Source: a virus
Direction: 5' to 3' (one strand)
IMG/VR virus record: IMGVR_UViG_3300009481_000059
Coordinates: 1 to 30,852 of that record
DNA: 30,852 nt
A program made the position numbers and the translations under genes. A model generated the notes under the pieces. The model ran no database searches. It saw nothing but the letters and a program-made list of their open reading frames with translations, and had not been told where the DNA came from. Shown one piece after another: positions 3,090-26,220 of the stretch (positions within the stretch are counted from its first letter, which is position 1; every line of letters begins with the position of its first letter).

Positions 3090-3428
3090 GTGAAATTCAG
3101 AAAAACAACTACTATTTCTGTTGGTGACAAAACTAAACCGATCTATGAGAGTTTGGAATTGTTGAGGTTAACACAAGCTCCACACTTATCATTTAGTTTG
3201 TATTTAGCCACAGTCATAGAAGAGTATCTAAAGAATCAGAAAAAAGATAGTAAGATAACAGAGTTTGATTCATTAGCAGTTTCTTCAAAGTTTCCATTAA
3301 TTATGGCAACTATTGAGAAATGGAATACTACCGTACATGGTATGTCTAATGATGATATTCTTAAATTACAAGAAAGAATAACACAGTTGAATAACTTAGT
3401 GAGAAAAGAGGTGTCAAAGAGATTATGA
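3090..3428 (+). CDS. Small helical protein, possibly ribbon-helix-helix, first gene of the MCM operon
   Basis: 112 residues from a GTG start positioned 26 bp after a TATA box. The N-terminal FRKTTTISVG strand followed by two helices (PIYESLELLRLTQ, SFSLYLATVIEEYLK) has the shape of a ribbon-helix-helix DNA-binding domain. The C-terminal half is a long helix with heptad character. The gene overlaps MCM by 4 bp. It could autoregulate through the ACTTAAC repeats just upstream, or load the helicase; both are inference. Confidence 0.75.
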   Translation: MKFRKTTTISVGDKTKPIYESLELLRLTQAPHLSFSLYLATVIEEYLKNQKKDSKITEFDSLAVSSKFPLIMATIEKWNTTVHGMSNDDILKLQERITQLNNLVRKEVSKRL

Positions 3429-5380
3429 TGTCAACTGATTCTGCAAAAATAGATATGATTGTTGATGGGTTATACAAGCATAATTATGTGGATATAATTG
3501 ACGGTTTACGACCTGATTCTACATTTAATATCAACCCATCACTACCTTCTTTTATTGATATTTATTTAGAAGATTCTAAGAAATTTGTGGATTTGATTTA
3601 CAAAGCAATATTTAGAATAATAGCAGAAAAAAGAGGTTCTAGTAAATATGAGATAATAGAAAGTTTTTTTTCTGATTTAAAGATAAAATTAGTTGTTGAT
3701 GATGTTATTAATCTACATCAAGTTAGTGCAAAGAATGAAAATTGTACTATAACATTTGATTGTCAGATTATAGCTACTGATTTTCCTAAATCCTATATAA
3801 AAAAGGCTTTATTCATATGTCCTATTTGTAGTAGAGATCAACCTATGAATTGTGATATTAATAGAAAGATAGGACAACCATATTGTATGAATACTTCATG
3901 TAAAAAAGCTAAAATGGAAGTTGATCAGAGATCAATAGTAACTGATGATGTTCAAACTATTTTAATGCAAGAACTTATGGAAAATTCTGAGAACCATTCA
4001 CCTGTTATTATGGCTGGAAAACTCATAGGTAATAATGTTAGAACTTCATTTGTAGGTCAGAGAAAAAGGATAACAGGTTTGTTCAGAAGTGAGATAGATA
4101 TAAAGAAGAATGAGAATGATATTTTTATAGATATTTTATCATTAACTGACTTAGAGGAATCTAAACCACTAATACCAACAGAAGAAGCAATAAAGATGAT
4201 AACAAAAGATTCAAAGGAAGACGGTTTTCTTGAAAAAGTTGTGGGTTCATTTGCTCCAAATATATTTGGATATAGTGATATAAAATTATCAATTTTATTA
4301 GAATTGGTAGGGGGTGTTAGAACTAAGAAACGTGGTGATATCAATATATTTCTAGTTGGTGATCCTTCAATGGCAAAATCAGAGTTGTTAAAATTTTCTA
4401 AAAATATAACACAAAGGTCAATTTATACTAGTGGTCGTGGTTCTAGTGCAGCAGGTTTAACAATTGGAATGGTTAAAATGCCTGATGGAAGAATGATAGC
4501 TCAGGCTGGTGTATTACCTATTTGTAATAACGGTTTTGCTTTTATTGATGAATTTGATAAAATGAATAAAGATGATAGAAGTTCAATGCACGAAGCCATG
4601 GAGCAACAAACAGTTTCAATAGCAAAATCAGGTGTTCAAATGACTTTACCAACTAAGACTAGTATTTTGGCAGCAGCCAATCCAAAGTATGGTGTTTATG
4701 ATAGTAGTATGACTTTAAGAGATAATATAGATATACCAGCCCCATTACTTAGTAGGTTTGATTTAATTTGGTTAATAAAAGATAAGGTACATCAAACAGA
4801 AGATATGCAGAAAGCAAGTCATATTTTAGATACATTTACTTCTGACAAGAAAGAAGTTTATTTTAACGAGAAAGAGTTAACTGCTTTTTTGAATTATGCA
4901 AGAGGGTTTAAACCTGTATTACAAGAAGAAGCGAAATCTAAATTACTTGAGATTTATGAACGTATGAGAAATGCAAGTGTTAAATCTGATATGCCTGTTG
5001 GTACAAGACAGTTAGAAGCATTAGTTAGACTTAGTATGGCTTATGCAAAATTATTTTTACGAGATCGTGTGACAATTGAGGATATAGAAAACGTTGAACT
5101 TTTAGTTAATTCTATGTATGAAAGTTTTGGTCAATCTCTTACTAAAGGTGGTATTCAACAGCAAATATATTTTGATAAAAAAAATACAAAACAACATGAT
5201 GCATTAAGTATTTGGAATGAATGTAGAGATGAAAAACTTCAAGTGAAGTTAAATAAGTTTGAAGAAGCTCTTAGAGAAGCTGGTATGCCTGAAATTGAAG
5301 CGAAAAGGTTAATAGATCAGTGGGAGAACAATAATTTAATTAAACTGAATGAAAATGGAACATACACAAGAATTGGATAA
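3425..5380 (+). CDS. mcm: MCM replicative DNA helicase
   Basis: 651 residues, normal for an archaeal MCM. The N-terminal domain has a zinc site at C132, C135, C143/C154 and C159. The AAA+ core shows Walker A GDPSMAKS (312-319), Walker B FAFIDEFDKM (371-380), sensor I in LAAANP (415-420), and the arginine finger LLSRFD (441-446). The C-terminal 80 residues are a winged helix (KRLIDQWENNNLIKLNENG). MCM forms a hexameric ring that unwinds the replication fork 3'-5'. The glycine usual after GDP in Walker A is a serine; otherwise all catalytic residues are present. It is followed by radA with a 32-bp overlap. Having its own MCM means the virus controls fork assembly while borrowing the host polymerase, none being visible here. 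Confidence 0.97.
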   Translation: MMSTDSAKIDMIVDGLYKHNYVDIIDGLRPDSTFNINPSLPSFIDIYLEDSKKFVDLIYKAIFRIIAEKRGSSKYEIIESFFSDLKIKLVVDDVINLHQVSAKNENCTITFDCQIIATDFPKSYIKKALFICPICSRDQPMNCDINRKIGQPYCMNTSCKKAKMEVDQRSIVTDDVQTILMQELMENSENHSPVIMAGKLIGNNVRTSFVGQRKRITGLFRSEIDIKKNENDIFIDILSLTDLEESKPLIPTEEAIKMITKDSKEDGFLEKVVGSFAPNIFGYSDIKLSILLELVGGVRTKKRGDINIFLVGDPSMAKSELLKFSKNITQRSIYTSGRGSSAAGLTIGMVKMPDGRMIAQAGVLPICNNGFAFIDEFDKMNKDDRSSMHEAMEQQTVSIAKSGVQMTLPTKTSILAAANPKYGVYDSSMTLRDNIDIPAPLLSRFDLIWLIKDKVHQTEDMQKASHILDTFTSDKKEVYFNEKELTAFLNYARGFKPVLQEEAKSKLLEIYERMRNASVKSDMPVGTRQLEALVRLSMAYAKLFLRDRVTIEDIENVELLVNSMYESFGQSLTKGGIQQQIYFDKKNTKQHDALSIWNECRDEKLQVKLNKFEEALREAGMPEIEAKRLIDQWENNNLIKLNENGTYTRIG

Positions 5381-6419
5381 CACTAATAAAGAAGAAGCCT
5401 ACCTAGTAGGTATGGCAAAAAAGAAGGAAGAGGAAGAAGGTTTACACTTACAACCACCTGAACCTGAAATAGATTTATCTGTATCACAACTAGATGGTGT
5501 TGGTGCTGTCACTCAAAAGAAACTTGAAGCGTTTGGTGTTACTAATTTAATTGATATATGTGTAAGAGGATCAAGAGAAGTATCAGAAATAACAGGTGTT
5601 TCTAAACCTACTTGTGACACTTGGGTTTTTAAAGCACAAAAACTTCTTGAAGATAATGACATGATTAGAAAAGCTGACATGGGTGTAATGGATCTTATGG
5701 ATTATCATGAAAATATGCCTGTGTTAAGTACAAAGTGTGATGATGTTGATAAATTAATGGGTGGTGGTGTTCGTGCTGAAGCCACATATGAAATATATGG
5801 TGAGTTTGGTGCTGGTAAAACACAATTCTGTAACACGTTAGCTTGTGAAGCTATAAAAGATGAAGGTAATGTTATTTGGATAGATTGTGAAGATACTTTT
5901 AAACCAAGACGTATAATTGAAATGCTTGTTGCTAGAGAAGAAATAACACCTGAAGAAGCAAGAGAAAAATTAAATCAGATTACATATTTATACACACCTA
6001 ACACTGAGCAATTATTGGGTGTAATTAATGGATTATCTGAAACACTTATGACTAAAAAACCAAAACTAGTTATTTTAGATGGTGCTATTGGTCAATTTAG
6101 AGAAGAGTATTTAGGAAGAGGTACACTTGCTGAAAGACAAATGCAGATAGCTAGATTAATGACTCATATTAAGAATATATCATTTTATTTTAGATGTCCA
6201 GTTGTATTTACAAATCAAGTACAATCAGATCCAAGTATGATGTTTGGTGATCCAATTAAGCCTATTGGTGGTAATGTAGTTGCTCATGCTTCAACATATA
6301 GATTATATTTCAAAAAATCAGGTAAAAAGAGAGTTGCACGTATGGTAGATAGCCCTGAACACGCACAAGCTGATGCAGAATATATTTTAACTGATAAAGG
6401 TCTTGTTAATGTTGAATGA
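5349..6419 (+). CDS. radA: RadA/Rad51-family recombinase
   Basis: 356 residues from the ATG at 5349. Residues 42-100 are the helix-hairpin-helix domain (LDGVGAVTQKKLEAFG). The ATPase core has Walker A GEFGAGKT (151-158), Walker B LVILD (240-244) and EEYLGRGTLAERQ (252-264), a RadA/Rad51 signature; FTNQVQ is the L2 region. RadA polymerises on single-stranded DNA and drives strand exchange, here probably for recombination-dependent replication. The start is ambiguous: ATGs at 5355 and 5412 are alternatives, the last giving MAKKKEEEEG and no overlap with mcm. The usual VDS after Walker B is LDG. Confidence 0.96.
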   Translation: MKMEHTQELDNTNKEEAYLVGMAKKKEEEEGLHLQPPEPEIDLSVSQLDGVGAVTQKKLEAFGVTNLIDICVRGSREVSEITGVSKPTCDTWVFKAQKLLEDNDMIRKADMGVMDLMDYHENMPVLSTKCDDVDKLMGGGVRAEATYEIYGEFGAGKTQFCNTLACEAIKDEGNVIWIDCEDTFKPRRIIEMLVAREEITPEEAREKLNQITYLYTPNTEQLLGVINGLSETLMTKKPKLVILDGAIGQFREEYLGRGTLAERQMQIARLMTHIKNISFYFRCPVVFTNQVQSDPSMMFGDPIKPIGGNVVAHASTYRLYFKKSGKKRVARMVDSPEHAQADAEYILTDKGLVNVE

Positions 6420-7452: not shown

Positions 7453-7722
7453 ATGAGTAATCCACTTGTTTCATTCTTAAACTGGTATGATAGGCATTTA
7501 ACTGAGTCATTAGCTTTAAGTGCATTTATACTCTATCTTCAAATACCACACACGATTTCGGCTGCCGAGTGTTTTTTCGGTGGCGATGTCGGACTTTACG
7601 GTTTTCACCCGCTGACCGATTTTTTTCTCTATGGGATAGATTTATTAGAAATAATACCATTAATTGGTGTAACGTTGGCAATTATAGCTAGGATAAAGAG
7701 TAAATATGGACTTTCCAAATAA
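7453..7722 (+). CDS. Small membrane protein with two membrane segments
   Basis: 89 residues. Hydrophobic segments lie at about 17-37 (SLALSAFILYLQIPH) and 57-80 (FFLYGIDLLEIIPLIGVTLAIIA), with a polar loop containing AECFFGGDVGLYGFHPLTD between. A patch at about 7558-7625, coding for that loop, is visibly richer in G+C than the surroundings, a hint of a more recent acquisition from host DNA. No family recognised. It overlaps the methyltransferase gene by 17 bp. Confidence 0.75.
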   Translation: MSNPLVSFLNWYDRHLTESLALSAFILYLQIPHTISAAECFFGGDVGLYGFHPLTDFFLYGIDLLEIIPLIGVTLAIIARIKSKYGLSK

Positions 7723-8254
7723 AAAATATAATATTATTTATGCTGATCCTCCTTGGAAGTACAGGGATAAAAGACAAAATCCTAATTCAGATAGACCAGC
7801 TAGATATGGTGGTATATCTTATGATGTAATGGACACTAGTGATATATCTAATTTACCTGTTAATGAGATAGCAGAAGACAATTGTATGTTGTTTATGTGG
7901 GTTACTTTTCCAAATTTACAAATAGGTTTAGATGTTATTAAAGCGTGGGGTTTTGATTATAGAACTCTTGGGTTCTCATGGATAAAATTAAATAAAAAAA
8001 ATGAAAAACCATTTTTTGGGATAGGATATTATACAAAATCAAATTGTGAGTGCTGTTTAATAGGTGTCAAAGGTAAGCCTATTGTTGCGAGTAATCGTGT
8101 TTCTAGTGTAGTTATGACACCAAGAGAACGACATTCACAGAAACCTAATATAATACGTGATAAAATAGTAGAATTATGTGGGGATTTACCAAGAATTGAA
8201 TTGTTCGCTAGAACTAAAACAGAAGGTTGGGATGTTTGGGGAAATGAAGTGTGA
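7706..8254 (+). CDS. MT-A70-family adenine-N6 methyltransferase
   Basis: 182 residues. IIYADPPWKY (residues 10-19) is the catalytic DPPW motif; CMLFMWVTFPNLQIGLDVIKAWGF and SWIKLNK follow as in MT-A70 proteins, and RERHSQKPNIIRDKIVELCGDLPRIELFAR is the C-terminal motif of the family. It should transfer methyl from S-adenosylmethionine to adenine N6, most likely in DNA given the viral setting. No restriction partner is adjacent, so self-protection or marking of viral DNA is likelier than a restriction system. Confidence 0.92.
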   Translation: MDFPNKKYNIIYADPPWKYRDKRQNPNSDRPARYGGISYDVMDTSDISNLPVNEIAEDNCMLFMWVTFPNLQIGLDVIKAWGFDYRTLGFSWIKLNKKNEKPFFGIGYYTKSNCECCLIGVKGKPIVASNRVSSVVMTPRERHSQKPNIIRDKIVELCGDLPRIELFARTKTEGWDVWGNEV

Positions 8255-9386: not shown

Positions 9387-9547
9387 TTTTTATTTTCTCC
9401 ATATAATATTTCATGAGCTTGTAGATATCTTTTTAATCCATCATCATCTCTTTTTTCTAATTCACTTTCACTTTCAACGTGCATTGGTATGAATAATGAT
9501 TCTTGCAATTTAATTATTCTTTTTATAGCCTTTTCTCGTTTAAACAA
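9383..9547 (-). CDS. 54-residue hypothetical protein with TTG start
   Basis: Begins (M)FKREKAIKRIIKLQESLFIP and ends GLKRYLQAHEILYGENKN. The TTG at 9547 overlaps the stop of the VWA gene and the TGA overlaps the next TTG, so the reading frame exactly fills the gap. Amphipathic basic helix followed by an acidic and then a helical segment. Confidence 0.6.
   Translation of the reverse strand: MFKREKAIKRIIKLQESLFIPMHVESESELEKRDDDGLKRYLQAHEILYGENKN
9387..9400 (-). promoter_or_regulatory. Ribosome binding site deciding a TTG start
   Basis: GGAGAAAATAAAAA directly before the TTG at 9386; nearly identical leaders precede 11297 and 19508. Confidence 0.6.
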
Positions 9548-11297
9548 GTGTACTCATTACTATGTTTCTGAATTGTTTTATAACTTTTTCGCTACCTAAT
9601 TCTGCATTAGCCACACTTACTATATTCTTACCACCAAATAGTTCTTTCATTGTTTCATGTACCCATAATCTTGGATTTATAACGACAAATATTATGTTTG
9701 GTGTGACTCTCATAGCTTTTACATATGATTTCTTACATAGTTTATAGTAATGATTTCTTTGCATACGAACACCATTTTTCCAATAATTTGGAACTCCATC
9801 AGTGACAACAATCATTAATTTCTTGTTACCTCTCATTTCTTTTAATGTTCTAGCTGAATATTCGAGTGCTAAATGTGTTGGCGTTCCATTATAATCATTC
9901 GTAACAGTTACATTTCGTACATCTGATATACTCTTTATTTCTGTTAAACCAACACTACCTTCACCATTACTACCCCATATATTCCCTTTTAGTTCTATGT
10001 TTGGAATGTTTTCAAGTGACTTGTATAACGTAGCCACAAGATTTCTTGCAATATCTATTCTACTATATGATTTCATAGAAGAAGAAGCATCTATTGATAT
10101 TAATATAGAACCACCTCTAGCAGTTTTCATATTCGTGAAACTTTTACCAATATCAACACCTCTTGTAATATTATTTATGTATGAATCAACATTTACGTCA
10201 TGCCCATGATAATCTACATATGGTTTTAATCCCATCTGTAAGTGTTTGAATACCCTGTTTAACTTATTTGCAGTTGAATAATCAGGTACAAATTTTGCAG
10301 TTTGTCTTTCAATTCTCTTTATACTAGAAGGCGTATTATCATAAGTTGCTGCTTCTGCCAATATTGTTTCTTGAATATCATTATATTCTTCTTCGCCCAA
10401 ATCTTTACCTGTTTGTATTAAATCTTGTTTTTGATCATCACTTACTTTTGAAGAATCATTGTTAGCTAATTCTTGTAAATCTTCTGGAATTTGTTCACCA
10501 GCACCATACGCTTCTGATGTACTATCCCATGAACTAATATGTCTATTTCTTTCATGTCGTGCTTCTGATCGTTCACCTGTTTCTTCTCTAATAGCTTCTG
10601 ATATTTGTGTTGCTGATTGATGTAAATCATTAGCACTACCTTCACCAGCACTACATATTTGTTCTGCTTTCTCTTTTTGGTTATTACGTTGTTCCAAATA
10701 GTCATCTAAAACATCTTTTATTGTGATTAAGATTCGTAATGCACCATATTTATCAGTACCTTTTACATCTTCCATAGCTTGTTCTAGTCTTGGAAAGTAT
10801 CTAGTTCTAAAAACTGTATCACTTCTCATACATCTTATTGCAAATAATATATTTATTGGGTTTGCATTTATTGGTTCATCTTCTAAGTCTTTATCAGGTA
10901 TTGTTTGTCCTAAACCTTTTAAAGTTGTATTGAATCTCTTTCCATATGCCAAGTATTCTCGTCTTAAATGAGATTCTATTCTTTCATCTTCCAATAAATT
11001 ATAAACATTAAAGTAAAAGTCAGTGTTATCCCAATCTTTCATTAATTTATCAACTTGATAAAATGGGCTTTGATATAATATATGAGCTAATTCATGTATT
11101 AATGCAGTATATTTTGGTATATGTTTAATTGTTGGTGTGGCAATATTTACTTTATAATCTCTTCCGTTTACTCTTTTACACCAATTATCCCCAGCTTTAT
11201 ACTGTATATCTATCCTACAATCTCTAACATATTCAACTATACTAGATGATTTATCAAATAATTCTTTCTCAGGTAATAAGTCTAGGTTTCTAGGCAT
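9540..11297 (-). CDS. Zincin-like domain fused to a von Willebrand A domain (CobT-like)
   Basis: 585 residues. The N-terminal part has ALIHELAHILY (HExxH, 68-72) followed by NLLEDERIESHLRREY (101-116), which gives the downstream glutamate of a zincin. An acidic, Ser/Gln-rich linker occupies about 205-310. The VWA domain starts near 395: SIDASSSM (MIDAS D-x-S-x-S, 403-407), GTPTH (T473), VVTDG (D500). MoxR-type ATPases work with VWA partners to remodel or load metal into target proteins; the matching ATPase is encoded three genes upstream (11783). It may be annotated elsewhere as cobaltochelatase CobT, but no cobalamin gene is near and the zincin half makes that unlikely. Confidence 0.88.
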   Translation of the reverse strand: MPRNLDLLPEKELFDKSSSIVEYVRDCRIDIQYKAGDNWCKRVNGRDYKVNIATPTIKHIPKYTALIHELAHILYQSPFYQVDKLMKDWDNTDFYFNVYNLLEDERIESHLRREYLAYGKRFNTTLKGLGQTIPDKDLEDEPINANPINILFAIRCMRSDTVFRTRYFPRLEQAMEDVKGTDKYGALRILITIKDVLDDYLEQRNNQKEKAEQICSAGEGSANDLHQSATQISEAIREETGERSEARHERNRHISSWDSTSEAYGAGEQIPEDLQELANNDSSKVSDDQKQDLIQTGKDLGEEEYNDIQETILAEAATYDNTPSSIKRIERQTAKFVPDYSTANKLNRVFKHLQMGLKPYVDYHGHDVNVDSYINNITRGVDIGKSFTNMKTARGGSILISIDASSSMKSYSRIDIARNLVATLYKSLENIPNIELKGNIWGSNGEGSVGLTEIKSISDVRNVTVTNDYNGTPTHLALEYSARTLKEMRGNKKLMIVVTDGVPNYWKNGVRMQRNHYYKLCKKSYVKAMRVTPNIIFVVINPRLWVHETMKELFGGKNIVSVANAELGSEKVIKQFRNIVMSTLV

Positions 11298-11499: not shown

Positions 11500-11783
11500 T
11501 TATCCATCATGTCAAACTTAAATGTGACAGCTTTATTTCTTCGTTTTTTTGTTCTGTTTCTTGAACTTGTAGTAGGTGTTATTCTAGCATTAACATGGCA
11601 ACATGGACACATAACTTTAGCACCATTCTTATTTGGTGTTAAATGTGTTTTAAGAAAGAAAACATTACAATGCCTACAAAAAGCATTTTCCTTGTAAACA
11701 TCTTCACCTTGAGAATGTCGCATATTCTTACTTAATCTTCCACAAATGCCTTTGCATAAGCTTCCCTTTATTGTGCAAGGCAT
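11496..11783 (-). CDS. Zinc-ribbon protein of the MoxR-VWA cluster
   Basis: 95 residues. Central zinc ribbon CRHC ... CPCC (about residues 36-64), with extra cysteines near the N-terminus (C3, C10, C14), and a basic tail (TTSSRNRTKKRRNK). The start ATG overlaps the stop of the MoxR gene by one base. Nucleic-acid binding or an adaptor role is possible. Confidence 0.75.
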   Translation of the reverse strand: MPCTIKGSLCKGICGRLSKNMRHSQGEDVYKENAFCRHCNVFFLKTHLTPNKNGAKVMCPCCHVNARITPTTSSRNRTKKRRNKAVTFKFDMMDK

Positions 11784-12682
11784 TATATATTCACCCCAAA
11801 TGTATCAGAAGCACGTACTCGTATGAATTCTCGTTCACTAGGATCACTGTATTTAATTAAGAATACTTCTCTCAATGTATCTCTTAGAATGTCAGTTGAA
11901 TATGCTTTCTGTTCTTTAACATTAATATCCAAATTGGTTCTATAATGGTTAAGAAATTGTGATATATCTCTTATAGATAAAGCGTACTCAACCTCACCTT
12001 TCACTCTCATAGCATAAACATCTTGCACGAATTTCAGTAATGGTGCTTTAACACTAGATTCATTGATGTTTTCCCAATTCATTATTCTATCAATATCTTC
12101 TGATTTTGGATATGCCCATGCTCTTCCTATGAATCTTGATCTCAAATCTTCTGTCATAGTATTGATTCCAGCATATGTAATAGGATTTACAGTCCAAACA
12201 ATAGATAGTTTACAACCTTCATTCAATTTGTATGTTTTACCATTTGCTACTATACTACTTCTTCCATCACAAATACTATTCCACCATCTTTGTATATCAT
12301 GGTCTTGTGAGTTTGCATCGTCACCATATAATAGTGCGTGTCCATAATGATTTGCAACTTCTATTGCTGTTGGTAACAATCCTAATCTGAATACTGTTCC
12401 ATCACGATTTATTTCTCTGTTTCCAATTAAATCATATTTTGTAGTACCACTACCAACAGGTTCAGTAACTAATGCTATATTGTTTTGTTTACAAATTGTA
12501 TGTACAAGTAGAGTTTTACCTTGACCTTTCTCTGATTCTATCAAATATGGAATATTTCTTTTTAATACTGCTTTCTCAAGGTCTTTTCTTTCAGTACCTA
12601 TTTCAATATATTTATCCCAAACCAAGATATTACTTGGATCATATTGTTCATAATCTATTTCGGCTATTTTTTCTTCGTTCAT
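11783..12682 (-). CDS. MoxR/CobS-type AAA+ ATPase
   Basis: 299 residues. Walker A ESEKGQGKT (49-57), the MoxR-type TTKYDLIGNRE segment (80-90, normally D/E-L-x-G), Walker B LLYGDDAN (117-124, with DDA in place of the usual DEIN), sensor I N166 in TVNP, and RSRF (181-184). These ATPases form hexamers that act with a VWA partner; that partner is at 9540. It overlaps its downstream neighbour by 1 bp and its upstream neighbour by 4 bp. The replaced Walker B glutamate could slow ATP hydrolysis. Confidence 0.9.
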   Translation of the reverse strand: MNEEKIAEIDYEQYDPSNILVWDKYIEIGTERKDLEKAVLKRNIPYLIESEKGQGKTLLVHTICKQNNIALVTEPVGSGTTKYDLIGNREINRDGTVFRLGLLPTAIEVANHYGHALLYGDDANSQDHDIQRWWNSICDGRSSIVANGKTYKLNEGCKLSIVWTVNPITYAGINTMTEDLRSRFIGRAWAYPKSEDIDRIMNWENINESSVKAPLLKFVQDVYAMRVKGEVEYALSIRDISQFLNHYRTNLDINVKEQKAYSTDILRDTLREVFLIKYSDPSEREFIRVRASDTFGVNI

Positions 12683-13002
12683 TCTAATCTATAAAATGTT
12701 CCTCGGACATATGAATCTTTTGTTAGAGTAACTCTTGCTATCATTTTTGCACATTTTTCATCTCTTCCACAACATTTTCTACTACTACCGTCACCATATT
12801 TAACTTCATAGTTGACATTTCCTAACTTTAGTCCCTTGCATATATACTCTCTCACTTCTTTTTTATTCTCTAATCTGATCATAAGATTATGTGGTTTTTC
12901 CAATAGTCTATTATACCTCATACCTATCTTACCTTCAAATCTTCTCATGGCAAGTTCTTTCATATTAATACCACCTATTCGTTTCATTGTTCTAAGGTTC
13001 AT
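12679..13002 (-). CDS. Basic cysteine-containing hypothetical protein
   Basis: 107 residues, or about 94 from an internal MKELAM start. Strongly basic N-terminal half, then SSRKCCGRDEKCAKMIARVTL with three close cysteines that may bind zinc. Ends TKDSYVRGTFYRLE. Overlaps MoxR by 4 bp. No family recognised. Confidence 0.65.
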   Translation of the reverse strand: MNLRTMKRIGGINMKELAMRRFEGKIGMRYNRLLEKPHNLMIRLENKKEVREYICKGLKLGNVNYEVKYGDGSSRKCCGRDEKCAKMIARVTLTKDSYVRGTFYRLE

Positions 13003-13721
13003 TAGTAATTTATCTCCGTTTTATTCATACTATCAGGTATTAAGTTGCTACATAACATAGTTCTTGCTGGTTTACCAAATATCTTTTTCTTTTTATTACT
13101 CTTGACAATCAAGGTATTCCACTTAGATTTAGTTAGTACACCTCTACACTCATGTTCATCAGCACTAGAAGCTATAAACCAATCACCCTTCAAAGTTTCA
13201 ACCATATCTAACAATGTGTTATAGTATTGTGGTATGGATTGATCACATACGAAAAAGTCATTATGTGTATAGATTTTTTTTCTCCAAGGTGGATCAATCA
13301 TAAAGAACGTATTCTCTGAGTCAACAGCTTGTATAGTTTTCTCATATGAAACACCTGTAATTGTTGCTTCAGGGAATTCTTTTTGACAAAATTCTTGTGA
13401 GTGAGGTGATAAATCATTAAGATATATTTCCATTCTTTCTTTGAAAAATCTATAACCATATTCATTTAGAACTTCTTTTCCACTTTTTTCTTTATCTCTC
13501 AAAACTTCATATGTTCTTGCTTTACCAGCAAATGGTTCACAATAAACTTCATATGAATCTCTACCTTCTGGTATTAATCTATACCAAAGTGCAACTATCT
13601 GATCTGCTGTTAAAGACATACCAGCAGTTCCACCTAGTAATTTTTTACCCCATACACTAGTTCTTTTATCGTTCATATCGCCACTACCAAATTGGTTAGC
13701 CCATTTTTTAGGTTCGGTCAT
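13002..13721 (-). CDS. Adenine-N6 DNA methyltransferase (DPPW type, Dam-like order)
   Basis: 239 residues. SAM-binding motif I is CEPFAGKAR (61-69), motif II-III region YLNDLSPHSQEF (100-111), catalytic motif IV MIDPPWRKKIY (141-151). This motif order (FxG first, DPPW later) is that of D12/Dam-like amino methyltransferases, unlike the MT-A70 enzyme at 7706, so the virus carries two unrelated adenine methylases. Target unknown; GATC is an attractive guess because of the GATC cluster at 21567-21792. Confidence 0.88.
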   Translation of the reverse strand: MTEPKKWANQFGSGDMNDKRTSVWGKKLLGGTAGMSLTADQIVALWYRLIPEGRDSYEVYCEPFAGKARTYEVLRDKEKSGKEVLNEYGYRFFKERMEIYLNDLSPHSQEFCQKEFPEATITGVSYEKTIQAVDSENTFFMIDPPWRKKIYTHNDFFVCDQSIPQYYNTLLDMVETLKGDWFIASSADEHECRGVLTKSKWNTLIVKSNKKKKIFGKPARTMLCSNLIPDSMNKTEINY

Positions 13722-16085: not shown

Positions 16086-16369
16086 TGTAGTGACCTCGCT
16101 ATTTCGTATAATGATCTTCCTTCTTCCAAGTTATCATATATGTATCTTGCATAAGTTGTTGGATATCCACCTGTTCTTAACATTTTTTTTACTGATAATC
16201 TACCAAAATTTGATAAACCTAAATGTGGATCTCGTCTAACTGCATAAGCCGTAATATATCCCATTTCATCACTTAACGCTAAATACGGACAACCACAAGA
16301 ATATATTTTTTTATCAGCTCTGTATAATGCTTTAACTAGTGATATTCTATTATTCATGATCTTTATCAT
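16082..16369 (-). CDS. Hypothetical protein
   Basis: 95 residues, or 91 from the Met at 16357. Basic, with SCGCPYLALSDEMGYITAYAV and a C-terminal helix (RSLYEIARSL). Start region overlaps 16350 by 20 bp. No family recognised. Confidence 0.65.
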   Translation of the reverse strand: MIKIMNNRISLVKALYRADKKIYSCGCPYLALSDEMGYITAYAVRRDPHLGLSNFGRLSVKKMLRTGGYPTTYARYIYDNLEEGRSLYEIARSLQ

Positions 16370-17033
16370 CCTCGAAATATTCTGAAAACTTTTCTATTTC
16401 ACCTAATGGATATCTTAATGGTTCTTCAATAGATTTATTCACCCACTCATTACCTTTAGTTCCTTCTTCATTGTAAAGATAACAATTATTAAATAATTGC
16501 ATCCACTGTCCTCGCCAAGTTTCTTGATCACGTAATGACTCTTTTATTGTTTCTGGGAAATCATTTCTTATTCTAGTTACTAATTTCATATTTATGAGAA
16601 TTTGATAATTATGCCATAGTATTTGATCTAATACTTTTCTCCAATCAAGCATATCATTTGTAAAGAATCTTGTGTTTTCTGATAACATAGTCCATATTTC
16701 CTTACCAATAAGGGCAACTGATATGGTAGTTTCATAGTTAAAGGGGTTAGTAGTATCACCTTTTCTATTTCGCATAACATATCTTGCTCTATCATCACCA
16801 TACAACCACGACATCATTTTACTTGTACTCAATGTAAAATCACCTGTTCGTACTTGAAGTTCTGATATATATCCTAATTCCAAAGATAACATAGTTAATG
16901 GATCAGGTGATAAACTTTTTCCCTTTTTTATAATATTTCTTATAGCTTCAATTATTTCATCAGGGTAACTTACTAAATCCCATGTTGAACCATAGTATAT
17001 TTTGTCCAACAAATAGTTAGGAAGAGTGGTCAA
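16350..17033 (-). CDS. Hypothetical 227-residue protein
   Basis: Mostly helical and Trp-rich, ending in an acidic tail (SEYFEDDKDHE). Segments such as DWRKVLDQILWHNYQILINM and RDQETWRGQWMQLFNNCYLY show no motif I know. It lies directly downstream of the glutamine amidotransferase with a 4-bp overlap, so a link to that pathway is plausible but unproven. Confidence 0.72.
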   Translation of the reverse strand: MTTLPNYLLDKIYYGSTWDLVSYPDEIIEAIRNIIKKGKSLSPDPLTMLSLELGYISELQVRTGDFTLSTSKMMSWLYGDDRARYVMRNRKGDTTNPFNYETTISVALIGKEIWTMLSENTRFFTNDMLDWRKVLDQILWHNYQILINMKLVTRIRNDFPETIKESLRDQETWRGQWMQLFNNCYLYNEEGTKGNEWVNKSIEEPLRYPLGEIEKFSEYFEDDKDHE

Positions 17034-17965
17034 TTATTATGATCCCCCTGTTTATTTTGCTCTTTTACCATTTCTTGTCTTAAACACCATTCTTGCCATG
17101 TTTCATAATCTTCCAATGCCTCTTCAGGTATATTACCAGCGAGTTCACTAGAAATATCCTCGTAATCTTCCAAAGTAGCCTTGCTTTTTAGTTGTTTTTG
17201 AGCTATTTCCTTTTCTATTGCCTCTTCTACTACGTCTATCTTCTTTTGCTTTGAGCTTTTGTTCTCTTTTTTGCTTTCGTCTTTCTTTTTTGCTGAGCTT
17301 ACCTGTGTTATTCGGAAGTTGCCCTGAAAAGAATCATTAGGTTGAGATTTCCCATAATAACTTCCCCAACTTGAATTTTGATATCCATATGTAGGTTTCT
17401 TTTCAAAGTTACTATTAGAACAAGCAACCTTATCTACTGTTGTCCAACCTTTACCAAATGTTTGTATTCCTTTAGGTGTTAATACACATACTTTTTCATC
17501 TATCATTGATAAATAGTTCATGCCAAAGTATCTAACTAACCATGCCATAATTCTACTATCTGATATGTCACCATCAACTAATTTTGCATCTGGTCTATTC
17601 ATAAGTAGTTTTAATGCAACTTCTTTATAATCACGCCATATTCCATTATGGAATAACACACCTTCTTTATCAAATCCACTAGCCATTGTATCATCAACAT
17701 TACCACTAATAGCGAATGGGTGACATAATGGTGTATCAACAGAACCATGTGTTGCTATTCTAAAGTGTATAATAATTGGTAATTGTATTTTCTCACTTTC
17801 TATTTTATCCATTATAAACTGTGATGTAACGTGCATACCTTTTTCCCATCTTACATGATCGCCTTCTATCCATGCTATACCACCACCATCTTTATTCATG
17901 GCTTCCATACTATCTAGCATTTCTTTTGTTGGGAAAGCATCTTCATACTTTGCTATGACACACAT
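17030..17965 (-). CDS. Class II glutamine amidotransferase (Ntn hydrolase)
   Basis: 311 residues. Starts MC, so Cys2 becomes the N-terminal nucleophile after Met removal. Family features follow: NKDGGGIAW (24-32), IHFRIATHGS (66-75, Arg binding glutamine), FHNGIW (105-110), SDSRIM (135-140). The domain releases ammonia from glutamine for a partner synthetase. Residues about 180-311 are a low-complexity basic then acidic tail (KKKDESKKENKSSKQKK) that could dock a partner. The amidoligase at 18588 is the obvious acceptor enzyme. Confidence 0.88.
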   Translation of the reverse strand: MCVIAKYEDAFPTKEMLDSMEAMNKDGGGIAWIEGDHVRWEKGMHVTSQFIMDKIESEKIQLPIIIHFRIATHGSVDTPLCHPFAISGNVDDTMASGFDKEGVLFHNGIWRDYKEVALKLLMNRPDAKLVDGDISDSRIMAWLVRYFGMNYLSMIDEKVCVLTPKGIQTFGKGWTTVDKVACSNSNFEKKPTYGYQNSSWGSYYGKSQPNDSFQGNFRITQVSSAKKKDESKKENKSSKQKKIDVVEEAIEKEIAQKQLKSKATLEDYEDISSELAGNIPEEALEDYETWQEWCLRQEMVKEQNKQGDHNN

Positions 17966-18591
17966 TATACTATTTCCTCCATTAACGGATCGGTCAAATC
18001 TACGGTAGGTTTTATCAAATTACCTGTTATCCTAGATCCTTTCTTTGTTTCATATTCTATTGATAATGTTATTGTTCTGTTATCAGGTCTTAAGAATTGT
18101 TCATAAATGAATTTCATAAATTTACCTACTTGTTTTACATACATTTCAAATGCTCTATTACTCATTGGTCTATTTATGGCTAATAATACACCTTCATCAC
18201 TACCTTTTGAAGATAGCCATGAAATATTAGGTATTCCTATATTTGTCATGAAGTTTGGACTCATTAACATTTCATCATTACCCCAACCTCTTATAGCATA
18301 TTTCATATTCTTTCTACAATATTCTGATTCATTATTCATTGAACTTGGTGATGTAGTTGACATAAATAATGCATCACTAATAAATGCTGATACGTCATAA
18401 CCACGTATTTGATTATCTTGCCAATGACTACTATTTGTCATCATATTAGAATATGCTGAAAATAGATTGTGAAATATTTTAGATTTATAATAAATCTTTA
18501 TTCCAAATCCATCTCTCATTATTCTAACCTGAGCGATATTTTTATTTTTCATTTTTATTTCAATTTCTTTCATCGTTGTTGTAGTGTTCAT
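17965..18591 (-). CDS. Hypothetical protein between the amidoligase and amidotransferase
   Basis: 208 residues, mixed alpha/beta. Segments: AQVRIMRDGFGIKIYYKSK, GVLLAINRPMSNRAFEMYV, RTITLSIEYETKKGSR. It shares one base with the amidotransferase start and 4 bp with the amidoligase stop, so the three are cotranslated. It may be the protein substrate or an adaptor of the pair; inference from gene order. Confidence 0.72.
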   Translation of the reverse strand: MNTTTTMKEIEIKMKNKNIAQVRIMRDGFGIKIYYKSKIFHNLFSAYSNMMTNSSHWQDNQIRGYDVSAFISDALFMSTTSPSSMNNESEYCRKNMKYAIRGWGNDEMLMSPNFMTNIGIPNISWLSSKGSDEGVLLAINRPMSNRAFEMYVKQVGKFMKFIYEQFLRPDNRTITLSIEYETKKGSRITGNLIKPTVDLTDPLMEEIV

Positions 18592-19508
18592 TGTTTCTTA
18601 TACCTCTGTGTTATATTACTTATTTTACCCTTGATATCAAATTCAGGTTTAACTACTGTTTTATCTTTCTTAAATTGGGCGTGTGTGAGAATATAATTAC
18701 TTATGTAAGTAGTACATTCATTAACAGAATCTAAATATGTTGCTGCATCACTAAACATTGGTAATACTCTTACTTCCATAGTTCTATGTTTAAAGTAATC
18801 AAAGTTTAGCTGGCAATATCTATCACCTTCACCACTTACTTGTGATTCAGGCATATGCTCAGGTTTACAATAATCTGTACCTGATGTACATTTTTCAATT
18901 CTTTCTATTAATCTTTGCATACCTATTTTATTCAATTTTTTCTCACCCCATGAATAAAGATGATCAATTAAACCTGTGTACATATCATATTCCATGGCAA
19001 TATCATAAAATCTCATATCTCTAAAACTAATATGAAAATGTCCACCACAAGTTCTATTAACGTATGTTGGATATGCATCAATAACTAATTGTTCCAATTC
19101 TTGTAATTTCTCATTTTTAAATAAAACAGGTCGTGTTACATATTCACCAACATATGCTACATCCAAATTATCAAGATTTTTTACAGAACAATCTTCATGT
19201 TGTGTTAATAATCTATGTTCTTTAGGGTAATTTTCCCATAAACCTTCCATTTCAAATCCTATTTTCCATATTGGCATACGTAAATAGTTTAATGGGGTTG
19301 AGTTTACCAATACTTCTTTATGTCCACACTCAGAACAACGATAATAATCTGTTTTACATAATTCTACTTCTTGACCATTTAATTCTTTTAAACAGTGTGA
19401 ACAGTATGAGTGTTGATTATTTTTTTTATATGTACTATCTGATAATTTTTCAATTCTTTGTTTATTATAAGTAGTCCACATTCCATCATACGTGGTTAAT
19501 TTATTCAT
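18588..19508 (-). CDS. Amidoligase (COOH-NH2 ligase, glutamine-synthetase-like) with N-terminal zinc ribbon
   Basis: 306 residues. Zinc ribbon C36, C39, C58, C61. The ligase domain begins IGFEMEG (83-89, G-x-E-x-E), then HEDCSV (104-109, D-x-S), GEYVTRP (121-127), CGGHFHIS (154-161, G-x-H-x-H), and LNFDYFKHRTMEVRVLP (234-250, N ... R-x(n)-E-x-R): the metal and ATP ligands of the Amidoligase_2 family in order. These enzymes join an amine to a carboxylate using ATP. Pairing with class II amidotransferases in viral genomes has been noted by comparative genomics; the substrate is unknown, and archaeal hosts lack murein. Confidence 0.88.
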   Translation of the reverse strand: MNKLTTYDGMWTTYNKQRIEKLSDSTYKKNNQHSYCSHCLKELNGQEVELCKTDYYRCSECGHKEVLVNSTPLNYLRMPIWKIGFEMEGLWENYPKEHRLLTQHEDCSVKNLDNLDVAYVGEYVTRPVLFKNEKLQELEQLVIDAYPTYVNRTCGGHFHISFRDMRFYDIAMEYDMYTGLIDHLYSWGEKKLNKIGMQRLIERIEKCTSGTDYCKPEHMPESQVSGEGDRYCQLNFDYFKHRTMEVRVLPMFSDAATYLDSVNECTTYISNYILTHAQFKKDKTVVKPEFDIKGKISNITQRYKKQ

Positions 19509-24267: not shown

Positions 24268-26220
24268 ATGGGTTTTGTAGATAAAATTCGTGGTGTGTTT
24301 AGATTAACTGATAAAGGTTTTACAGAAACCACAACTAGACCTTCAATAGCACAACCTTACATGAGTACCGATACAGGTGCTAAATTACCAATTTTTCCAT
24401 TCCCTCTCATAATGATTTATGAGTTAGCAGATAACATTGATGCACTTAGAATACCAATTGAAACCTTAAACAGAGAGATGTTTAAGAATGGTTTTGAGGT
24501 AACTGAAAGATGGAAGTACCAATGTAATAACTGTAAGAAGGAATTTCAGTATAAACCATTAGCTAGTGACTTGCCTGATGATCAACCATTTGAAACTAAC
24601 AATGATCCAGAATCAGCACAACCACGTAAAAAGGCTAATGAACCTAAGTTAGATCTAGATCAAATACAATGTGATACTTGTGGTTCTACCGATTTAAGAC
24701 GACCTATACCTGAAAACCGTAAGATATTGGAAGATATGTTAGCAAACCCTGTTAATGGAAATATGCAAACATTGGAAGATGTTTCAAGACAATTAGAACG
24801 TGATTTAGAGATAGCTGATAACGCATACTTACTTTGCTTAAAGAATTATTACATAGATGAACGTACAGGTAAAATAGACCATGAACGTTCTGTTATAAAA
24901 GAGTACCTTAGACTCGATCCACCACAGGTGGCGATGATAGCTGATAGTGATGGTCGTATAGGTTATGACGATAAAAGAAATAAGATTTTTGTTTGCCCAC
25001 GTTTCGAACACAGAGATAAACGTTTAACCGAACCTGTTTGTGATAGATGTGGTGCTCAAGCTTTAAAAGCCGTAATGGAAGTTAACTCTGTATATTCAAT
25101 AGGTATTCCACAGCCAAAACGTGTTGTTTATGGTGAAGGTGAAGTTATTTGGAAGGCTGGTAAATACAAACCATCGTTAATTTATGGATTTTCCCCTATC
25201 TATTCTATATGGTCAAAGGCTATGTCATTATCACATATGGATGAATATATTAGAAAATACTTTGATAAAATGCGACCACCAAGAGGTTTACTTGTTGTTG
25301 CTTCACGTAACTATGAAACATTTAGAAAGTCTTGGGATGTATTAAGTCAAAAAGCAGCAGAAGATCCATACATGATACACCCACTTATGGTAGAAAGTGA
25401 CAAGGGTAATGGTAACATGGCACAGTGGATGGACTTTACAGGTTCATTGAAAGAATTAGAATTTATTGAGATTAGAAGAGAATTAAGAATGATTATTGGA
25501 GCAGTATTTGGTGTATTACCATTCTACTTTGGTGAAACCCCAAGTGGTTGGTCACAAGAAGGACTTCAAGTAACCATTACTAATAGAGCAGTAAAGTGGG
25601 GACAAGACATACTTGAAAAATCATTTTTCAGTAAAATCGCATTAGCCCAAGGAATTGACGATTGGAAGATTGCATTGAAAGCTGGTGAAGAAACAGATAA
25701 ACTTAGAGATTTACAAACAGATGGTGTAGAAATACAGAATATGGCTATGTTACAACAAATGGGATTTGAGGTAACAAGAACACATACAGGTGAGTTTAAA
25801 GTAAGTAAAGATAGTGCTATGACAGCCGAAACATTGGCAATGGGTATGAGTTTAATGGGTAATAGTGGAGCAAATGGTAGAGGTAATGCAATGGGACAGC
25901 AAGAAGAGAATAAACAAAGCTTTGGTGGAGAACCAAAGAATTCAAGACCAAGTGATGTTGGTGGAACTATGGGTGGTTCACCAGCAAGTGGTACAGGTAC
26001 TACAATGAGTAAAAAGAACTATGTTGACGGTATAACACCAAGTAACTTTGAAGTAGTCAAGAAAACATTACAAACTTCAGTTGACTTTGGCTGGACTAAA
26101 ACAAAGACAGTTGATGAATTAAGAAGATTTGGTGGTATGACAGTTAGACAGGCAAGAGATATTGTTAAGAATGAATTTGAAGGTATGAAGGGATGGGAAG
26201 ATGAAGAAGAAAGTAAATAA
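24268..26220 (+). CDS. Portal protein with zinc-ribbon insertions
   Basis: 650 residues, longer than many portals. Portal-like features: IYELADNIDALRIPIETLNR (residues 50-69), DPPQVAMIAD, SPIYSIWSKAMSLSHMDEYI (309-328), PPRGLLVV, and LEFIEIRRELRMIIGAVFGV with PFYFGETPSGWSQEGLQV, the wing/stem segments of tailed-virus portals. Portals form a 12-mer ring at one capsid vertex for DNA passage. Two zinc sites are inserted: C86/C89 with C135/C138, and C243/C258/C261. The C-terminal 110 residues are Gly/Ser/Asn-rich, then helical. First gene of the head operon. Confidence 0.85.
   Translation: MGFVDKIRGVFRLTDKGFTETTTRPSIAQPYMSTDTGAKLPIFPFPLIMIYELADNIDALRIPIETLNREMFKNGFEVTERWKYQCNNCKKEFQYKPLASDLPDDQPFETNNDPESAQPRKKANEPKLDLDQIQCDTCGSTDLRRPIPENRKILEDMLANPVNGNMQTLEDVSRQLERDLEIADNAYLLCLKNYYIDERTGKIDHERSVIKEYLRLDPPQVAMIADSDGRIGYDDKRNKIFVCPRFEHRDKRLTEPVCDRCGAQALKAVMEVNSVYSIGIPQPKRVVYGEGEVIWKAGKYKPSLIYGFSPIYSIWSKAMSLSHMDEYIRKYFDKMRPPRGLLVVASRNYETFRKSWDVLSQKAAEDPYMIHPLMVESDKGNGNMAQWMDFTGSLKELEFIEIRRELRMIIGAVFGVLPFYFGETPSGWSQEGLQVTITNRAVKWGQDILEKSFFSKIALAQGIDDWKIALKAGEETDKLRDLQTDGVEIQNMAMLQQMGFEVTRTHTGEFKVSKDSAMTAETLAMGMSLMGNSGANGRGNAMGQQEENKQSFGGEPKNSRPSDVGGTMGGSPASGTGTTMSKKNYVDGITPSNFEVVKKTLQTSVDFGWTKTKTVDELRRFGGMTVRQARDIVKNEFEGMKGWEDEEESK

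Follow-up and report, generated by a model that had tools for sequence, protein, structure and literature searches.

The minus strand of an archaeal virus genome carries three overlapping genes, for a predicted carboxylate-amine ligase of the glutamine synthetase (GS) fold, a companion protein and a class II (Ntn) glutamine amidotransferase (GATase), and on balance we take their products to be one enzyme system for glutamine-dependent amidation, with the companion as a subunit. The mechanism that fits best is a glutamine-dependent amidation, or some other gamma-glutamyl ligation, whose carboxylate does not belong to murein. The genes lie in what is called here the window, the whole stretch of 30,852 bp that was analysed, which is an entire IMG/VR record and probably a fragment of a larger genome.

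The locus and its genomic setting

The ligase, companion and GATase ORFs encode 306, 208 and 311 amino acids, respectively, and are coupled as tightly as the preliminary description had reported: ligase and companion overlap by 4 bp, companion and GATase by 1 bp, and the GATase overlaps the next gene by another 4 bp. The features of the cassette, with the motifs of the ligase given after its ORF, are as follows.

18588..19508, minus strand: GS-fold carboxylate-amine ligase (amidoligase; Amidoligase_2, GS fold, invariant residues), predicted
19326..19403, minus strand: N-terminal zinc ribbon, CxxC-x18-CxxC, ligase residues 36-61; kept in L067-L069
19242..19259, minus strand: GFEMEG motif (E86, E88; GS-type metal ligands); E86, E88 and G89 invariant in 20 relatives
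19032..19049, minus strand: CGGHFH motif (H157, H159); invariant in the viral clade and like the GS GxHxH
18804..18821, minus strand: RYCQLN motif (R230, N235); R, Y and N invariant in the viral subset (27/27 rows)
18768..18779, minus strand: MEVR motif (E245, R247); E245 in 104/104, R247 in 102/104
17965..18591, minus strand: companion protein, a conserved third component with separate homologues and fused N-domains
17030..17965, minus strand: class II (Ntn) GATase; Cys2 nucleophile, R69, N107-G108, D136
16350..17033, minus strand: lineage-specific protein directly after the GATase, with relatives only in L067 and L068
16082..16369, minus strand: small CPYLAL protein, 95 aa, found together with the cassette within its viral family

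The trio sits in a long minus-strand block (~9.1-21.2 kb) that is flanked by replication genes and the structural module. Other genes of the window that bear on its interpretation are these.

3425-5380: MCM (Pfam match 1.1e-74)
5349-6419: RadA/Rad51 (Pfam match 2.5e-54)
7706-8254: MT-A70 putative DNA methyltransferase
13002-13721: Dam-like ORF, putative DNA methyltransferase
24268-26220: portal, structural module

MCM and Rad51/RadA are archaeal-type replication and recombination genes, and among 50,697 phage records the MCM, RadA and portal proteins of the window match archaeal viruses only; a search of the window RadA against genomes gave no matches. The assignment of the window to a virus of archaea, already made in the preliminary description, is confirmed by these sequence comparisons. 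The same genome also encodes a VWA-domain protein (9540-11297) and a MoxR/CobS-like AAA_5 ATPase (11783-12682), a duo that is conserved across the virus family and recalls the CobS/CobT-type chelatase pair.

The three predicted proteins

Against Pfam, the window ligase matches Amidoligase_2 (PF12224) with E=9e-4 and 19.6 bits, where the curated cut-off is 22 bits; its relatives match this family far more often than any other in Pfam (12 of 20, best E 1.1e-7). An alignment of 20 divergent relatives holds 17 invariant columns, and E86, E88, D106, E122, H157, H159, R203, R230, N235, E245 and R247 are invariant in these relatives, with H157 present in all 100 covered sequences. Taken in order, the invariant residues would correspond to the GS metal and ATP/glutamate ligands, a residue-by-residue equivalence deduced from the order of the motifs. 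The Foldseek search alone only suggested a GS fold. The AlphaFold model of the ligase has a pLDDT of 77, exceeding 90 in much of the core, and this core superimposes on glutamine synthetase with a Z of 10.0 and an rmsd of 3.3 Å over 171 aligned residues; among the 50 matches listed, the GS/carboxylate-amine ligase superfamily is the only one represented, and YbdK, GshAB and gamma-glutamylmethylamide synthetase appear among them. As a class of chemistry, the assignment to a predicted GS-fold carboxylate-amine ligase is well supported.

Two features of other ligases in the set deserve mention. Seven of them (L082, L083, L086, L094, L096, L098 and L101) have a long Cys-rich insert with many CxC/CxxC motifs between D106 and E122, which is missing from the window ligase, with its zinc ribbon at the N-terminus. 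On a 97-kb viral contig, a second GS-like ligase candidate (L078:3993-5156; GGHIHLG...GLEYR) lies immediately upstream of the amidoligase.

The window GATase has a single Pfam match at the 0.01 level, GATase_4 (E=3e-3), a family that includes EgtC/YafJ/Dug3-type proteins, and GATase_6 is matched by 22 of 37 relatives. A profile of the 37-row family finds GFAT glutaminase domains at 1.3e-5 and PurF at 0.03. Cys2 is kept in 113 of 113 covered GATases, four of which read V (GTG start) for M, and the remainder of the pocket is nearly as constant (R69 in 119/120, N107 and G108 in 120/120, D136 in 117/118); L003, whose match to the GATase was confined to a short C-terminal part of the tail, was left out. 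The glutamine pocket is intact, and the protein is a predicted glutaminase. The earlier identification of the two enzymes, as a GS-like COOH-NH2 ligase with a zinc ribbon and an Ntn glutamine amidotransferase, thus holds, and the loss of ligase ligands, or of Cys2, that it had contemplated for most relatives was not seen.

The middle protein had been listed as one possible target of the pair. Its standing as a conserved third component is borne out: separate homologues occupy the place immediately upstream of the ligase gene at L001, L067, L068, L069, L071, L073, L110 and L113, and in G009, G011, L070 and L074, as well as in near-copies of G011, the companion is the N-terminal domain of the ligase itself. 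The window alone puts the ligase first; in every other companion-bearing locus the gene order is companion-ligase-GATase. Pairwise E-values connect the window protein to that of L001 (2e-6) and the L001 protein to the G011 N-domain (4e-5), and in profile-profile comparison the window-type group reaches 96% with L001/L071, merged companion profiles then reach 88% with L110/L113, 54-67% with L073 and 42-73% with the fused domains, and seven control neighbours reach 2% at most. Proteins upstream in L077, L082, L088, L093, L096, L098, L115 and L083/L101, together with the L105 protein upstream of the GATase, were candidates in the companion position and are not counted as companions because they score weakly in profile comparison, at 24% at most.

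No companion match was found in Pfam, PHROG, NCBIfam or, by sequence, the PDB, and fold searches with its weak AlphaFold model (pLDDT 60) went no further than E 0.67 in Foldseek and Z 3.5 in VIA, without a match, which for such a model is not evidence of a new fold. Fusion to the ligase in relatives makes it most likely that the companion serves as a subunit or substrate-recognition domain and not as a diffusible substrate, and the role of amidation target becomes less likely; it could still act as a self-modified carrier. As a conserved, sometimes fused third component it is new relative to the literature searched, which includes Iyer et al. 2009 only through citations and in which no description of it was found, and it offers a new handle for a search for the substrate.

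Pairing, distribution and associated genes

The family became accessible through relatives of MCM and an alignment of four GATase rows; scans of viral contigs that started from one protein or two rows recovered almost nothing. There are 120 GATase loci, 10 of them limited by contig ends, and a ligase adjoins the GATase in 107 of the 110 evaluable ones, which are not 110 independent events because many loci are close relatives. Automatic scoring paired 105, and two were added on inspection: the window, where the companion gene lies between ligase and GATase, and L002, where a divergent zinc-finger ligase pairs with the GATase. Absence of one partner from relatives carrying the other, a further pattern that the preliminary description had considered, is confined among the evaluable loci to three Verrucomicrobia GATase loci without an adjoining ligase (L176, L181 and L185). 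In every pair of relatives tested, a set from which the window is absent for want of a close relative, the dN/dS ratios of ligase, companion and GATase are well below 1, with dS near saturation in the divergent pairs, and the three genes are under purifying selection in these relatives. Given these ratios and the recurrence of homologous pairs at >100 loci fetched separately, the pairing is not a matter of chance.

Within the archaeal virus family, the pair is present in 11 records that also carry MCM, and both genes are missing together from six large MCM-bearing members (G006, G026 and G029-G032). On the MCM tree the carriers need ~3 changes of state, at least two of them on well-supported branches, and the cassette was therefore gained or lost more than once. 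In the Verrucomicrobia genomes (L147-L185) the ligase-GATase pair is common, has no recognisable companion, and is found in several copies per genome in some instances.

The cassette is wider than three genes. Of the 11 MCM-bearing carriers, 8 encode a gamma-glutamyl cyclotransferase (GGCT, PF06094), compared with 1 of the 16 MCM-bearing records that lack the pair (Fisher p 6e-4), and in records >40 kb the counts are 7/9 against 0/6 (p 0.006), and the CPYLAL protein, which has no Pfam family, occurs in 8/11 cassette-bearing against 0/16 cassette-free MCM-bearing records; the p-values of these co-occurrences overstate independence because of shared ancestry, the carriers falling in few clades. 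The sole GGCT outside the carriers belongs to G005, a 21-kb fragment which apparently ends before the cassette region, and GGCT was not found in the window record, itself a 30.9-kb fragment. An R2K-like ATP-grasp was seen by eye in L002 only, none being noticed in the window, and a GARS-like ATP-grasp in L001.

Chemistry, target and known relatives

The commonest reason for one-to-one binding of a class II GATase to a ligase is ammonia coupling. In an amidation of this kind, the GS-fold ligase would spend ATP to turn a carboxylate, most likely of the gamma-glutamyl type, into an acyl phosphate, and the Ntn protein would hydrolyse glutamine at Cys2 to provide the ammonia for amide formation. 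The companion subunit would recruit the substrate or join the two enzymes, a task that in sister viruses would fall to the N-terminal domain of the ligase, and the GGCT of most archaeal carriers could remove or recycle gamma-glutamyl amides. Release and attachment of ammonia had been suggested at the outset, and this stands as the favoured activity of the pair; it is no longer the sole reading, as cleavage of gamma-glutamyl amides is a possible alternative role for the Ntn protein.

That second activity belongs to the main rival explanation, which we regard as rather unlikely: a protecting-group or carrier cycle in which the ligase joins the gamma-carboxylate of glutamate to an amine, the Ntn protein, with GGCT, hydrolyses the product, as in EgtA/EgtC or PuuA/PuuD, and no ammonia is transferred. 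The sole Pfam match of the window GATase, to GATase_4, fits such a cycle, as do the frequency of GGCT among the carriers and the gamma-glutamyl ligases matched by the GS-fold model. On the other side are the GATase_6 matches of the relatives and a family profile closest to the GFAT glutaminase domain, and the strict one-to-one adjacency with overlaps of 1-4 bp suggests a complex, not successive steps of a pathway. It is also conceivable, and in our view improbable, that the ligase works like the Pup ligase PafA and links a gamma-glutamyl carboxylate of a peptide or protein to lysine, marking or inactivating host proteins, with the companion as substrate adaptor or tag carrier. The dedication of the companion to the ligase, the hosts without murein and the Pup-system enzyme Dop, weakly present at rank 46 of the fold list, are consistent with tagging of this kind, which leaves the near-obligatory glutaminase partner unexplained and finds no conserved Pup-like C-terminal Gly-Gly-Glu/Gln in the companion. 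A part in DNA-base hypermodification, to which the early, non-structural position of the cassette and the two putative methyltransferases might point, is very improbable and was rejected as a leading idea because no thymidylate-synthase homologue, needed for hydroxymethylated precursors, was found in the 27 records searched.

If the favoured reading, glutamine-dependent amidation, is followed to its target, the hosts matter: they are archaeal and have no murein, so the cassette probably modifies something else, and the difficulty that the preliminary description saw in a murein target is real. The acceptor would then have to be sought among protein carboxylates, gamma-glutamyl polymers and gamma-glutamyl cofactors. 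Archaea offer non-murein gamma-glutamyl acceptors that include protein side chains, the poly-gamma-glutamyl tail of F420 and, in some haloarchaea, surface polymers of poly-gamma-glutamate or glutamine. We tentatively suggest, as one possibility, a virus-borne three-subunit amidation by ligase, glutaminase and new companion domain, directed at proteins of host or virion, at a gamma-glutamyl surface polymer or at a gamma-glutamyl cofactor like F420. If amidation of a non-murein archaeal target proves true, the murein reading becomes a special case of a general viral gamma-glutamyl chemistry.

MurT is a Mur-ligase-like enzyme and is paired with a class I-type GATase, folds that differ from those of the trio. 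MurT-GatD resembles the trio in the two-gene logic of ligase plus glutaminase, which amidates a peptidoglycan glutamate carboxylate (PMC3267633). Precedent among phages, to which the preliminary description had appealed, exists: amidoligase-GATase cassettes are already known (PMC10580990, PMC5498523, PMC3517423), cassettes of amidoligase, class II GATase, GGCT and ATP-grasp are credited to Iyer et al. 2009 as cited in PMC10580990 and PMC4431377, and RIO1-like podoviruses carry a seven-gene 'peptidoglycan modification cassette' (PMC5498523). The archaeal cassette is the archaeal branch of this phage amidoligase/GATase/GGCT cassette. Both place a GS-like amidoligase beside a class II GATase, occupy an early, non-structural position and include GGCT, in most carriers on the archaeal side. 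The window differs in its archaeal hosts without murein, in the companion, separate or fused, in the N-terminal zinc ribbon of its ligase, and in the order amidoligase-companion-GATase. An Amidoligase_2-type protein directly upstream of the GATase is likewise found in OM43 phages MEP401/402 and mycobacteriophages Marvin/Blackbeetle (PMC10580990), which, unlike the archaeal set, have no recognisable companion and infect bacteria. In phage C75C1 a class II GATase domain is fused to a GGCT domain (L190:3001-3897), with Amidoligase_2 (3.5e-30) upstream.

Action of the phage cassettes on peptidoglycan peptides has been a proposal of the literature since 2009, for which no biochemical proof of cell-wall peptide modification was found in the literature searched. 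With at least 11 archaeal virus records carrying the pair, with conserved active sites and hosts without murein, the accepted target cannot be general. A full-text literature search for archaeal viruses and amidoligase returned nothing evidently about this pair, and its occurrence in an archaeal virus family is new relative to the literature searched, with Iyer et al. 2009 included only as cited there.

A class II GATase has been noted in the haloarchaeal viruses phiCh1 and ChaoS9 (PMC8651126). Directly before it lies an uncharacterized protein of 355-357 aa (PhiCh1_200, L212:2216-3283; ChaoS9_220, L213:2216-3289) with GMEIEQ (GMExEQ), AGSHVH, FN and TIELR in the order of the ligase motifs. 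Unlike the window, these viruses have no companion gene, and the putative ligase is annotated as 'uncharacterized'; a profile comparison of PhiCh1_200 with the amidoligase was not significant. At the level of motifs, phiCh1 and ChaoS9 may thus carry an unannotated version of the ligase-GATase pair, a new lead that makes PhiCh1_200/ChaoS9_220 a candidate only. If the match is true, the question of the target becomes testable in cultured haloarchaeal viruses. The PhiCh1_200 gene is split in two in the original phiCh1 deposit, and the newer record states that it was corrected by re-sequencing.
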